Of a stretch of 64,000 nt of DNA, positions 40,090 through 45,304 are shown piece by piece. The notes beneath the pieces were generated by a model. It was not told the DNA's origin and made no database searches. It saw only the letters and a list, made by a program, of their open reading frames with translations. The DNA is from Luteitalea pratensis (lineage in GTDB: Bacteria; Acidobacteriota; Vicinamibacteria; Vicinamibacterales; Vicinamibacteraceae), in the NCBI RefSeq assembly GCF_001618865.1, contig NZ_CP015136.1, positions 7,227,001-7,291,000 of the forward strand, written 5' to 3'. A program made the position numbers and the translations under genes. Numbering within the stretch: position 1 is the stretch's first letter; every line of letters starts with the position of its first letter.

Positions 40090-43000
40090 GTGCCCACTCC
40101 CGAGTCCGTGCAAGCCATCGTCAATGCGTCGCTCGATACGTGGAAACGGCAACTGCTCGACCTCACGCGCCGCAACCGGGCCCTCAACTTCCGGGCCCTG
40201 AAAGTCTCCACGATCGCCGTGGTCGACGAGCAGCCTGCCGAGATCTATCGCCTGCTCTACGACGAGGAGAGGGCGCTGACGTTCGCCGCCGCGCCCCAGC
40301 CGGCATCGTCTGCCGCACGCCCACGGGCCGACGAACCTGCCAAATCGGCAAACGCTGGCGAGGCCGACGATCCGTTCGACGATGCCGAGCATGCGCCCGA
40401 GGGGCGGACGTTCGAACCATACGCTCCGGACTCGCTGCCCGGCATGCACCTGGACACGGTGCTGCAGACGAGCCTCGAGCCCGAGGCCCTCGATCGTTCG
40501 CTGCGTCGCATCGAGGAGCAGGCGCGGCTCTCGCTCGAGGAACAAGGCGTGAACACGCTCTTCCTGGCGCTGGGCCTGCTCCACTACACGGAGGCCGAAG
40601 CGTCGGACGAGATCTTCAAGGCGCCCCTGGTCCTGCTGCCAGCGTCCCTGCGACGCGAGTCGGCGCGATCGCCATTCGCCCTCAGCGTTGGCGACGGCGA
40701 ACCGATGGTCAACCCGGCCCTCGCCGAGTTGCTGCGACGCCAGCACAATCTCGCGCTCCCCGAACTGCCGACCGGCGAGGGCGCTTCGCTCCAGTCACTG
40801 TTTCTCGAGGCGCAAGCAGTCATCGACAAGCTGTCCGTGGCGAGAGCAGAACCGCGCTGGCGGATCACCAACGACATCTACCTCGGGCTGTTCTCGTTCC
40901 AGAAACTGGTGATGTACAAGGACCTCGAGGCGAATGCCGCTGCCGTGACGCAGCATCGCCTCGTCCATCAGCTCATCACCCGGCGCGGGGCGGTGACCGG
41001 TGGCGGCCTCGGCCTGCCAGACGACGTGCGCACTGCGACGCTGGACGACGAGTATCCACCGGAGCGTGGCGCACATGTAGTGGACGCCGATGGCAGCCAG
41101 CAACGGGCCCTTGCAGCGGCCGAGCGGGGCTACGACCTCGTCGTCGAAGGTCCACCCGGAACGGGCAAGTCGCAGACGATCACCAACCTCGTGGCGCAGA
41201 CGCTGCACGCCGGCAAGACCGTGCTGTTTGTCGCCGAGAAGATGGCTGCCCTGGATATCGTGCACCAGCGACTGCAGCACGCGGGTCTCGGTGAGTTCTG
41301 CCTGGAATTGCACTCGACGCGTTCGAGCAAGCGCGAGGTGATCAAGAGCATCGCCGCCGCGCTGGACGCGTCATTGCAACGCGGCGCCACCCCCGGGGAT
41401 GCCGCGGCAAAACTGCCGGACGTTCGCGCGACGCTCGGAAGGTACGTCGAGGCGGTACACAAGCGTTTCGGTGCCATCGATACGACGCCCTTCAGCGCGT
41501 ACGGGCAACTGGCCGGAGTGCTCGATGCCCCTCGGGTCGACTGGACCGGCGATCCTGTCCAGGTGACGCAATCGGCGCTGGACCTGGCCGATGCACGCCT
41601 GCAATCGCTCGCCGCGGCCGCTGCAGCCGCGGGAGACATCTCCACGCATCCCTGGCGCGATACCTCGCATACTTTCTATCCACAGGACCAGCTCGACGCC
41701 GTCGTCGAAGCGGCCAGGGGCGTGGCCGATGGTGTTGCTGGCGTCGAGGCTGCGTCGGCAGACGCGACGGCCGCACTCGGCCTTCCCGCGCTCGAGAGCC
41801 TCGCCGATCTCGGACGCGTGCGAGTCGTCATGGACCTGTTGCGACAGTCGCCGGGTGCGCCGCGTGACGTCATCGAAAGCGCCGACTGGAACACGGTTCC
41901 GCGCGAGGCCCTCGACCTGATCGAGAGGGCGAGCGAGGCCCAGCGGCTGACTGCCGAGGTGAGCGAGCGGTTCCTGCCCGGCGTGCTGCAGGACGACCAT
42001 GCCGGCGACATCGCGTACATCGAGAGCAGGTCGGGCGTGCTGGCGTCGCTCTTGTGGTGGCTCGATAGTCGGCAGCGCGCGATCCGCACGCGATGGGCAG
42101 CGCAACGGCAGCCCACGTACGTCCCCTCCTATGCGGCGCAGGCGCATGACCTCAAGTCGGTCGTGGCCCTGCGGGAGACGCGCGCCACACTGGAGGTGGC
42201 ACACGATCGCGGCACGGCGTTGTTCGGAGTGCTCTGGCAGGGCACCGCGTCCGATGTTGCAAAGCTCGAGGCCTACGCGCGCTGGGTGTCGTCGCTTCGC
42301 CAGGTGCACGTCAGCACGCCGCTATCGGCGGTGACCCTGACGGTCGCTGCCCAGGGTCGCGTCGACATGGCGACCGCTCACCGGCTCGAGGTGCGCGCGA
42401 CGGCACTGATCACCGCGGTGGAGCGACTGGCCACCATGGTGCAGTGGCGAGCGGACCGGCAAGCGTTGGTGATGCTTCCGCTCGCCGAGTTGCAGGTGCG
42501 GGTGTCCGGACTCGTTTCCGAGTCACACCGGGCGGCCCGGTGGGGCGCCTTCGTTGCGGCCACGCAAGAGGCGCGCGAGACGATTGCCGCCCCGTTGGTG
42601 GATCTGGCGGAAGCCGATCGTGTGCGGTATGCGGACCTGCCGCGTGCGTTGCGTCGTGCGTTCTGGTTTGCGTGGCTGGCCAGGTGCGTCGAGGACCGGC
42701 CAGCGTTGGCCCGCTTCCAGGCGCTCACCCACGAGCAGCGCGTGCGCGAGTTCCGCGACCTGGACCGGCGCGTGCTCGCCGACAACCGCTCGCGGCTTGT
42801 CACATCGCTGCGGGCACGGGTGCAGACGTCGCTCCGGGATGACGCCGTCGAGGCGGTGATGCCGGTGCTTCGGCGCGAGATGGCGAAGCAACGCAATCAC
42901 CGGCCGATCCGCGAGACGCTGCGGCTGGCCGCGCCAGCCGTACGTGCCATCAAGCCCGTGTTCCTGATGAGCCCATTGTCGGTCGCCCAGTTCACGAAAG

Positions 43001-45042
43001 GCGAGACGCCGACCTTCGATCTCGTCGTGTTCGACGAGGCGTCGCAGTTACCTCCGGAGGATGCGATCGGCTCCATCGTTCGCGGCGCTCAGCTCGTGGT
43101 CGTCGGTGACCCGAAACAGTTGCCGCCGACGAGTTTCTTCGCGAGCCCGCACGATACGCCCGCCGTGACCGATAGCGAAGACGGCGTCGACGTCCCCGAC
43201 GCCGAGAGCATCCTCGAGGCGTTCATGGGCTGCGGCGTGCCCATGAGCCGGTTGAAGTGGCACTACCGTAGCGCGCACGAGTCACTGATCTCGTTCTCGA
43301 ACGTCAGCTTCTACGACGGCGACCTGCTGACCTTCCCCAGTGTCGAACCGCTGTCCGATCGCCTGGGCCTTCGTTTCGAGCACGTGAGCGGCGGTATCTA
43401 CGAAGGCAAGGGCCTGAATCTCGCCGAAGCACGTCGCGTCGCCGACGCGGTCGTCCGGTTCGCCCGCGAACAACTGGCCGGAGCGAGAGCCGGTGTGCGT
43501 CCCTTGTCGCTTGGCGTCGGCACATTCAACCTGCGCCAGCAGCTGGCGATCCAGGATCTGCTCGAGGAGCGACGGCGCGATGAGCCGGATATCGAGCTGT
43601 TCTTCGATCGCAGCCGCGACGAACCGTTCTTCGTGAAGAACCTGGAGAACATCCAGGGCGACGAGCGCGACGTGATCTTCCTCAGCGTCACCTACGCGAA
43701 GGGACGCGATGGCCGCCTGCGACAGAACTTTGGTCCGCTCAACGGCGAGAACGGCTGGCGGCGTCTCAACGTGCTGACGACGCGCGCGCGGCGAGCGATG
43801 CGCGTCTTCTCGTCGATGCGGGCCAGCGACATCCAGGAAGGCCAGTCGAAAGGGGGCCCGCTGCTCAAGGGCTTCCTCGAGTATGCAGAGTCCGGCAGAC
43901 TCGATCACCCGTCGATCGTCGCCGCCGCGCTCACCGAGTCCCCGTTCGAACGCGAGGTCGTCGCCGATCTGACGCGGCGCGGCCACGTCGTGCAGCCGCA
44001 GGTGGGCGTCGCCGGCTATCGCATCGACATCGGGGTGCGTGACCCTGATGCACCGGGCCGGTTCCTGCTGGGGCTCGAATGTGATGGTGTGGCTTACCAC
44101 GCGTCCGACACCGCGCGGGATCGGGACCGGCTGCGTCAGCAGGTGCTGGAAGCACGCGGCTGGACCATCGTGCGGCTATGGAGCACCGACTGGTTCAAGG
44201 ATCGAGCGGGCCAGATGGAACGACTCGAAAAGGCGATCGCCGACGCGCGTGCGACGCGACCCGCCGCGACCCTCGAACAAGCGAATGACGAGACCGCAAA
44301 GGTAGGGCCGGCTCTCCGCCCGCGCGCCGAAGCCTTGGCGGAGGCGGGAGCCGGCCATGACCCCAATGTTCCGAACTCGCCACCGATTCATGCGGTCGTG
44401 GAGCCCTTGGGATCCGACGCCACGAATGACCGCGTCCGTGGTCCAGGCGCTGGCCCCCTCCACCTTCGCCAAGGCTCCGGCGGACAAGTCGGAGAGCGGG
44501 CCCTACCTTACAGAAAGGCACCGCCGCCCTCGCTGCCGGCCGGCGACGTACTCGAGTGCGACGCGCGGCAGTTGGCGTCGATCGTCGCGCACGTCGTCGG
44601 CGTCGAATCACCGGTGCATGAGGACGATCTCGTGAGCCGGGTGACGGGCTACTTCGGCCAGCGTGCGGGTACTCGGGTCCGTGCGCACGTGCTCGCGGCG
44701 TGCGCAGACGCGGCCGTGCGGGGATCGGTCGAGCGTCGCGGCGAGTTCCTCTGGCAGCCGGCAGGAAGCGTGCGCGTTCGGGATCATTCGGGCAGCGGCA
44801 TCGGCGCGGACCGCATCGCGACCGAAGAATACGACGCGGCCCTGCGAGCGGCGCTCGAGGGCGGGCAGTCGGTTCGGCACGACGCCCTGCTGACCGGGGC
44901 GCGGACATTGCTCGGCTTCGAGCGCACCGGCAGTACGCTGTCGGCCGCGCTGGATGCGGCAATCGGCCGGCTGCTTGCGAGCGGCGAGATCGGGGAAGGC
45001 AGCGCCGGCTATCGGCTCCTGGACCCGCCTGCGTCGACGTGA
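40090..45042 (+). CDS. DUF4011 superfamily-1 helicase fused to MTES_1575-type endonuclease and DUF3320
   Basis: This 1650-residue protein begins with a DUF4011 region (WKRQLLDLTRRNRALNFR). Its split helicase core has Walker A GPPGTGKSQT near residue 354, Walker B VVFDEASQLPPED near 979, VVVGDPKQLPP, KWHYRSAHESLISFSN, and NIQGDERDVIFLSVTYA with the helicase motif VI Arg in TTRARRAMR. A Vsr/PD-(D/E)XK-like nuclease (about 1277-1400) follows: FEREVVADLTRRGH, YRIDIGV and LGLECDG. A DUF3320 C terminus ends it. Such enzymes are often in defence islands and recall Mokosh-like helicase-nucleases in layout. A 211-bp repeat is inserted in frame at residues 1403-1473, so nuclease and C-terminal domain are joined by an artificial linker. 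GTG start. Confidence 0.88.
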   Translation: MPTPESVQAIVNASLDTWKRQLLDLTRRNRALNFRALKVSTIAVVDEQPAEIYRLLYDEERALTFAAAPQPASSAARPRADEPAKSANAGEADDPFDDAEHAPEGRTFEPYAPDSLPGMHLDTVLQTSLEPEALDRSLRRIEEQARLSLEEQGVNTLFLALGLLHYTEAEASDEIFKAPLVLLPASLRRESARSPFALSVGDGEPMVNPALAELLRRQHNLALPELPTGEGASLQSLFLEAQAVIDKLSVARAEPRWRITNDIYLGLFSFQKLVMYKDLEANAAAVTQHRLVHQLITRRGAVTGGGLGLPDDVRTATLDDEYPPERGAHVVDADGSQQRALAAAERGYDLVVEGPPGTGKSQTITNLVAQTLHAGKTVLFVAEKMAALDIVHQRLQHAGLGEFCLELHSTRSSKREVIKSIAAALDASLQRGATPGDAAAKLPDVRATLGRYVEAVHKRFGAIDTTPFSAYGQLAGVLDAPRVDWTGDPVQVTQSALDLADARLQSLAAAAAAAGDISTHPWRDTSHTFYPQDQLDAVVEAARGVADGVAGVEAASADATAALGLPALESLADLGRVRVVMDLLRQSPGAPRDVIESADWNTVPREALDLIERASEAQRLTAEVSERFLPGVLQDDHAGDIAYIESRSGVLASLLWWLDSRQRAIRTRWAAQRQPTYVPSYAAQAHDLKSVVALRETRATLEVAHDRGTALFGVLWQGTASDVAKLEAYARWVSSLRQVHVSTPLSAVTLTVAAQGRVDMATAHRLEVRATALITAVERLATMVQWRADRQALVMLPLAELQVRVSGLVSESHRAARWGAFVAATQEARETIAAPLVDLAEADRVRYADLPRALRRAFWFAWLARCVEDRPALARFQALTHEQRVREFRDLDRRVLADNRSRLVTSLRARVQTSLRDDAVEAVMPVLRREMAKQRNHRPIRETLRLAAPAVRAIKPVFLMSPLSVAQFTKGETPTFDLVVFDEASQLPPEDAIGSIVRGAQLVVVGDPKQLPPTSFFASPHDTPAVTDSEDGVDVPDAESILEAFMGCGVPMSRLKWHYRSAHESLISFSNVSFYDGDLLTFPSVEPLSDRLGLRFEHVSGGIYEGKGLNLAEARRVADAVVRFAREQLAGARAGVRPLSLGVGTFNLRQQLAIQDLLEERRRDEPDIELFFDRSRDEPFFVKNLENIQGDERDVIFLSVTYAKGRDGRLRQNFGPLNGENGWRRLNVLTTRARRAMRVFSSMRASDIQEGQSKGGPLLKGFLEYAESGRLDHPSIVAAALTESPFEREVVADLTRRGHVVQPQVGVAGYRIDIGVRDPDAPGRFLLGLECDGVAYHASDTARDRDRLRQQVLEARGWTIVRLWSTDWFKDRAGQMERLEKAIADARATRPAATLEQANDETAKVGPALRPRAEALAEAGAGHDPNVPNSPPIHAVVEPLGSDATNDRVRGPGAGPLHLRQGSGGQVGERALPYRKAPPPSLPAGDVLECDARQLASIVAHVVGVESPVHEDDLVSRVTGYFGQRAGTRVRAHVLAACADAAVRGSVERRGEFLWQPAGSVRVRDHSGSGIGADRIATEEYDAALRAALEGGQSVRHDALLTGARTLLGFERTGSTLSAALDAAIGRLLASGEIGEGSAGYRLLDPPAST
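44299..44509. mobile_element. MITE-like element inserted in the helicase-nuclease coding sequence
   Basis: The 211-bp segment is bounded by 19-bp inverted repeats: AAGGTAGGGCCGGCTCTCC at 44299-44317 and GGAGAGCGGGCCCTACCTT at 44491-44509, differing at one position. It contains a GAGCCGGCC inner palindrome and the 30-bp block starting CCACCTTCGCCAAGGCTCCG at 44460-44489, both found in intergenic repeats. No transposase is encoded, and no target-site duplication was evident. The reading frame of the host gene stays open through it. Confidence 0.75.
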
Positions 45043-45304
45043 ACCGAGGGCAGGCGGTTCCGAGAGCGGCCGACGTCCGTAGGCAGACGATGCGTAGGCG
45101 TCGAGCAAGCTCGACGCCTACGTGATTCGCGTGGATGCGATACGTCGCCTGCGGTGTAGCTGCCGACCCTGGTCAGCAGAAGGGGTTAGTGTAGCCGCCG
45201 ACCTTGGTCGGCGGGTGGGTTCGATGTAGCCGTCGACCTTCCACCTTCGCCAAGGCTACGGTGGACAAGTCAGGTCGACGGGGGATCCCTGCGGGTAACG
45301 AAAC
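45043..45304. repeat. palindrome-rich intergenic region
   Basis: Four stacked elements fill the gap: the 13-bp perfect palindrome GTAGGCGTCGAGC-AA (45094-45121), a degenerate TGTAGCTGCCGACCCTGGTCAGC near 45155, the perfect CCGCCGACC-TT-GGTCGGCGG (45195-45214), and at 45232-45279 the GTCGACCT/AGGTCGAC palindrome split by the 30-bp CCACCTTCGCC block (45241-45270). No gene was seen. Confidence 0.85.

Follow-up and report, generated by a model that had tools for sequence, protein, structure and literature searches.

A GTAG-REP hairpin pair, probably inserted in frame in a helicase-nuclease gene of Luteitalea pratensis, and the small module in its loops

We analysed a 64,000-nt stretch from the genome of Luteitalea pratensis, a species assigned to Vicinamibacterales in the Acidobacteriota (hereafter the window; G000:C1:7227001-7291000, where G000 is the strain's own genome, a single contig of 7,480,314 bp) that contains a helicase-nuclease gene (Table 1). 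The gene has a strong coding score over its 1650 open codons, and a domain search of the 1650-aa protein found DUF4011, an AAA (SF1) helicase, an MTES_1575 nuclease (aa 1286-1383), and DUF3320 (aa 1493-1532). The protein scores 1444 bits against PADLOC PDC-S37, and 1309 bits against the profile of the anti-phage protein ProA (NF058533), under the curated cut-off of 1500; it is therefore no more than a relative of ProA. A 211-bp block (44299-44509) lies between the nuclease and DUF3320 domains, and the reading frame runs open through it. A sequence-only reading had described the block as a MITE-like element joining these two domains in frame, and its account of the position and of the open frame agrees with our results.

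The block is bounded by inverted ends (44299-44318 and 44490-44509) that had been given as 19 bp long with one mismatch; the single mismatch is real, and the length is 20 nt. The block contains a further inverted pair (44325-44347 and 44460-44482) and its halves are 80% alike, indicating two related hairpins: the left half aligns over its full length with the reverse complement of the right half, and both fold as hairpins. Both start with GGTAGGGCC, that is, GTAG followed by a palindrome, so each half has the GTAG beside an imperfect palindrome that is characteristic of GTAG-REPs. At 56 nt the hairpins are beyond the GTAG-REP norm of 20-40 bp with a loop of 2-20 bp, because their loops hold a module of about 30 nt, described below. 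An Rfam search gave two matches, both far below the gathering scores, which we take as chance.

Table 1. Coordinates of the features discussed (positions in the window unless a contig or locus is named).
Feature	Location	Strand	Remarks
Host gene, helicase-nuclease	40090..45042	+	single ORF, 1650 codons, open through the block
Predicted disordered linker	44263..44517	+	pLDDT under 50; holds the whole block
Left REP hairpin, class A	44301..44356	+	arm type CCGGC; GTAG at 44302-44305; loop is a module variant
Centre	44357..44451	+	95 nt, 31 residues; native linker or REP-pair spacer
Right REP hairpin, class A	44452..44507	-	arm type CCCGC; minus-strand GTAG at 44506-44503
Loop module within right hairpin	44459..44488	+	30 nt, TCCACCTTCGCCAAGGCTCCGGCGGACAAG
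Class B GTAG-REP, same module in loop	25744..25799	+	another window copy
Class B GTAG-REP with module	45226..45281	+	another window copy, downstream of host gene
RAYT gene 1, Y1	G000:C1:4000308-4000772	-	NF047646, 94.7 bits (cut-off 80)
RAYT gene 2, Y1	G000:C1:1497523-1497927	+	NF047646, 86.1 bits (cut-off 80)
15 tandem class A heads beside RAYT gene	L047:487-1360 = G000:C1:3999441-4000314		

Pieces of the block recur in the window and in the genome at large, and further copies of the ends are abundant. Chance does not explain this: with at most three mismatches the left end is found five times in the window (two of these being the ends of the block itself), where shuffled sequence gives 0.01, and the inner core four times (one being the block itself), against 0.00. 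A BLAST search of the block against its own genome gave at least 57 matches, a lower bound since 40 of the 504 first-look candidates were scored. The hairpins belong to a genus-level GTAG-REP family, which we call class A, with the head GGTAGGGCC[CG]GCTCTCCG. At one mismatch or fewer, there are 368 class A heads in G000, a high copy number such as is expected of a GTAG-REP, 212 in G004, 87 in G002, 19 in G001, and one each in G003 and G028; the 54 remaining genomes, of 60 searched, have none. The reversed head, used as a control, gave no match in G000 and between zero and three in single genomes among the 60. Four-letter tags beside 10-bp palindromes were also counted blindly: GTAG occurs 139 times, and eleven control tags 44-246 times; with loops of at most 8 nt, GTAG has 64, the overlapping GGTA 82, CGTC 49, and the remaining tags 3-28. 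By itself, then, GTAG is not the top tag.

How class A copies are arranged was followed in a 1.6-Mb sample (four 400-kb blocks, L051-L130, 21% of G000), which holds 135 heads at two mismatches or fewer. The GTAG tags face outward in 27 of 42 pairs of neighbouring heads, with 10 pairs direct and 5 having GTAG inside, an excess with a probability of 9e-8 against an expected one quarter. None of the 27 outward pairs has identical arms (5.5 expected, P 0.001), and the spacers of REP pairs in the sample span 4-125 nt. The pair in the helicase-nuclease gene fits this pattern, with its tags outside, unlike arms (CCGGC with CCCGC), and a spacer of 95 nt.

The genome also encodes two RAYT proteins (Table 1), and both genes are flanked by the REPs, as in REPIN/RAYT systems: RAYT gene 1 lies between the 15 tandem class A heads, accompanied by one inverted head, and a group of three heads on its opposite side, and RAYT gene 2 has one head on each side. 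The TAG stop codon of the RAYT gene beside the tandem heads is apparently supplied by the GTAG of the inverted REP. In a search of seven genomes with the RAYT 2 protein, G000 was matched, G001 and G004 each have a relative at 52%, G005 gave a weak match, and G002, G003, and G006 gave none; since G002 has 87 heads, there is no simple link between this RAYT and REP numbers. RAYTs are reported to cut single-stranded REPs and to need the GTAG (PMC8266576). By analogy with that family, RAYT action on class A REPs is likely, and the resident RAYTs may well have moved the class A copies described here. In such a mechanism a resident RAYT (a single-strand transposase) would recognise the GTAG and the hairpin, cut beside the hairpin, and join the hairpin to another site, where the target would not be duplicated. 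Insertions into genes would mostly be lost, and the survivors would be those in linkers or surface loops whose reading frame stays open. We consider it very probable that the block consists of two GTAG-REP hairpins, paired with tags outside and inserted in frame in the disordered linker of a defence-type helicase-nuclease, with a RAYT mechanism as the proposed route.

The block could instead descend from a DDE-type insertion sequence and be a classical MITE whose terminal repeats measure 20 bp. The terminal inverted repeats with their one mismatch would suit this origin, but the halves occur alone: the block itself is the sole copy covering the full 211 bp among the at least 57 scored matches, the others covering one half each (one of them extending into the centre, query 112-194). 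The flanks GACCGCAAA and TTACAGAAA show no direct repeat at the block ends, each half is a REP, and the genome has RAYTs, so a single MITE was rejected as very unlikely. What stands of the MITE-like element in the sequence-only reading is the in-frame insertion of a non-autonomous repeat; its type is a GTAG-REP pair. A decaying host gene, open by luck, would agree with the rarity of REPs within genes (see below), which suggests that such insertions are usually harmful; it is nevertheless very unlikely, given the 1650 open codons, the strong coding score, the presence of every domain, and like insertions in enzymes such as ThiL.

Insertion of the hairpins into the host gene is well supported; the point to be weighed is whether the centre arrived with the hairpins. 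The C-terminal part of the host protein was matched in 12 of the 60 genomes (own included); both close orthologues from the same genus (G004 and G001) lack the hairpins, in keeping with an insertion, and within the searches made no orthologue from a distant phylum came up with the same linker. Delimited alike, the linker has 94 residues in the host, 55 in G004, and 66 in G001. The two hairpins account for about 37 residues, and subtracting them leaves about 57, the length seen in the orthologues; the "about 70 foreign residues" of the sequence-only reading is thus an upper bound. Subtracting 207 bp leaves 25. These lengths slightly favour two hairpins placed either side of a native linker. The pair statistics favour one REP pair, that is, a single event bringing in an element of about 207 bp (REPIN-like, a REP pair with its own spacer), in which case the centre would be foreign and the native linker short or shortened. 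REPs in this genome commonly occur as outward pairs whose arms are unlike, 95 nt is inside the observed range of spacers, and 207 is divisible by three; against these stand the 25 remaining residues and a centre that shares at most 9 nt with any of 26 other REP-pair spacers (BLAST matches of 8-9 nt at most). We give this single-element origin a substantial chance, somewhat short of even. Against the 1.6-Mb sample, the centre matched itself and otherwise only stretches of 12-17 nt, none of them strong, and its codon score, which exceeds those of 83% of open intergenic windows but ranks at the 16th percentile among coding windows, favours neither origin. In an AlphaFold model (host protein from 43900 on, four-sequence alignment, mean pLDDT 68), the linker is predicted to be disordered. 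Because the frame is open and the flanking domains are intact, the linker is probably translated. It is presumably neutral.

REPs within genes are not confined to this locus. Among genes called within this analysis in the 1.6-Mb sample (some calls may be wrong; coding fraction 0.877), we found 28 of 120 class A heads (two of them the block's own), 3 of 84 class B matches (the second family, below), and 7 of 38 module matches inside genes. The remaining 92 class A heads lie outside called genes, as expected of mostly extragenic GTAG-REPs, and the block's copy lies inside one; the earlier statement that the pieces are otherwise found only between genes therefore did not hold. By chance, the coding fraction would put far more heads inside genes than are seen there, so most insertions into genes are evidently lost. 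Some of the other genes with REPs encode conserved enzymes. For example, a REP pair in ThiL codes for about residues 196-227, where the alignment to structure 6xep_A is broken between 199 and 231; in a biotin ligase the REP head (about 166-171) is within a break, at 138-188, of the alignment to a solved structure; and in a ketopantoate reductase (about 156-161) it falls where the alignment to 3hwr_A is gapped. REPs also lie between the Pfam domains of a HEAT-cyclophilin protein and a DUF7133-cytochrome protein. In the repair protein Mfd (G000:C1:7444633-7448373), a class A REP that carries the module lies in the C-terminal region; the Mfd alignment stops before the REP, and the C-terminal position is all that is shown. 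One open frame (L114:10212-12491) contains a module-bearing class B REP together with a SpoIID domain and a transposase of the IS110 type, and is either a fusion or adjacent genes read together.

Events of this kind are already known: the survey by Di Nocera et al. (2013; PMC3733652) describes in-frame GTAG-REPs in genes, many of them repair genes and helicases. What had been seen as a direct view of an intergenic repeat becoming coding is thus not unique, either in print or in this genome. The same survey, which names Acidobacteria once, gives pairs with GTAG outside ("HH") as the privileged type in most families, unlike arms in many families, spacers of 20-100 bp in most, and loops of 2-20 bp in its Table 1, with some Bradyrhizobium loops to 27 bp. 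The elements described here share with those intragenic REPs the GTAG and palindrome, the HH pairs, the unlike arms, spacers mostly of 20-100 bp, the in-frame copies, and the REP-flanked RAYTs; they differ in being an Acidobacteriota genus-level family and in the loop module of about 30 nt. With REPINs (PMC3116915, PMC8266576) they have in common the inverted REP pairs, known here from sequence alone. By description, they also resemble the palindromic elements of about 150 bp known from Rickettsia (PMC10969869), in which palindromic repeats are also read in frame in proteins. REP insertion into a tolerant linker, though familiar as an event, here has an unusual component. An acidobacterium now joins the genomes whose proteins incorporate palindromic repeats, in this case some housekeeping enzymes and one enzyme of defence type, and whether such peptides are only tolerated or become useful can be tested outside Rickettsia.

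Less expected than the in-frame insertion is the loop module, which occurs with identical boundaries in a REP family unrelated to class A, in Bradyrhizobium hairpins, and exactly in at least 119 stretches from many phyla. Its consensus, about 30 nt, is TCC[GA]CC-TTCGCCAAGGCTNC-GG[CT]GGA-CAAG. The loops of the 135 sampled class A heads are short in 113, the module in 14, and something else in 8. Another GTAG family, class B (GTAGCCGTCGACCT-TC-AGGTCGACGG), has 188 matches to its short form in G000 at two mismatches or fewer; in the sample, 54 copies have a loop of 1-3 nt (TC in 45 of them) and 11 carry the module, with a loop of exactly 32 nt, i.e., TC plus 30, in 10 of the 11. Two unrelated REP families therefore have one module in their loops, with boundaries that coincide.

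Exact copies of the 26-mer CCTTCGCCAAGGCTACGGCGGACAAG occur in GTDB genomes, in at least 119 stretches (L146-L264). The 80 of these that were compared come from Verrucomicrobia, Lentisphaerae, Kiritimatiellae, Acidobacteria, Cyanobacteria, Alpha- and Deltaproteobacteria, Doudnabacteria, Gottesmanbacteria, and others, and the flanks of the module vary between them; most module-bearing records are MAGs, so that single records may be contaminants, and four Bradyrhizobium records are not labelled as MAGs. In 149 drawn Acidobacteriota genomes, the module was found at two mismatches or fewer in seven (including our own, with 92 copies). Three of the four Bradyrhizobium loci have it within ATTGCTTC...CGCAATGAC (L180 has the short form too), so that these loci carry the module in a hairpin. 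In layout they resemble the long-loop GTAG-14 REPs of Bradyrhizobium, which are described as having a self-complementary long loop in a GTAG hairpin (PMC3733652). In two Lacunisphaera loci it lies between GTCGGGC and GCCCGACCTAC, again a GTAG hairpin. After deduplication, 5 of the 49 foreign sites from the same 80 stretches have a hairpin stem of at least 7 around the module, about 20 times the mean of permuted pairs (0.5%; highest permutation 4%), and 44 have no clear hairpin; in our own sample, 1 of 13 deduplicated copies is in hairpin arms, not above the highest permutation. Loops are thus at most preferred by the module.

In some genomes (L317, L323, L344, and L202) the module is nested in its own loop, giving arrays of 18-nt left and 12-nt right units. 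The numbers of extra left and right units are equal in several arrays, 4+4 in L323 (five levels), 3+3 in L317, and 1+1 in eleven rows; of the 28 complete rows, from the 80 stretches plus further loci, 13 are equal and 15 unequal (rank correlation 0.16, P 0.42), where one array in L317 contributes two rows as inner readings and the search behind many rows had required a left repeat. Over all 119 listed stretches and 39 other sources, unusual module stems are paired in 25 of 36 cases, against 18.5 in shuffles (highest shuffle 24), a weak excess. Six 17-mers of the module were not found in PMC (5.39 million papers), nor did we find a published account of it at the level of literature listings.

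We tentatively suggest that the module may be a minimal mobile element of its own across many phyla, which would enter the apical loops of palindromes, both of unrelated REPs and its own, nesting to five deep, and which would have come into the host gene with the REPs and now code for part of the protein. Peptides such as LRQGYGGQ and FAKATADK are common in metagenome proteins. Should the module move by itself, it would rank as a very small mobile DNA, and these recurring peptides would be explained as translations of one repeat. Its mobility is for now a lead: a search for a dedicated transposase gave 25 Y1 matches in seven of eight module-bearing genomes, and four module-like sequences lie near 3 of the 25 Y1 loci, which is suggestive only.
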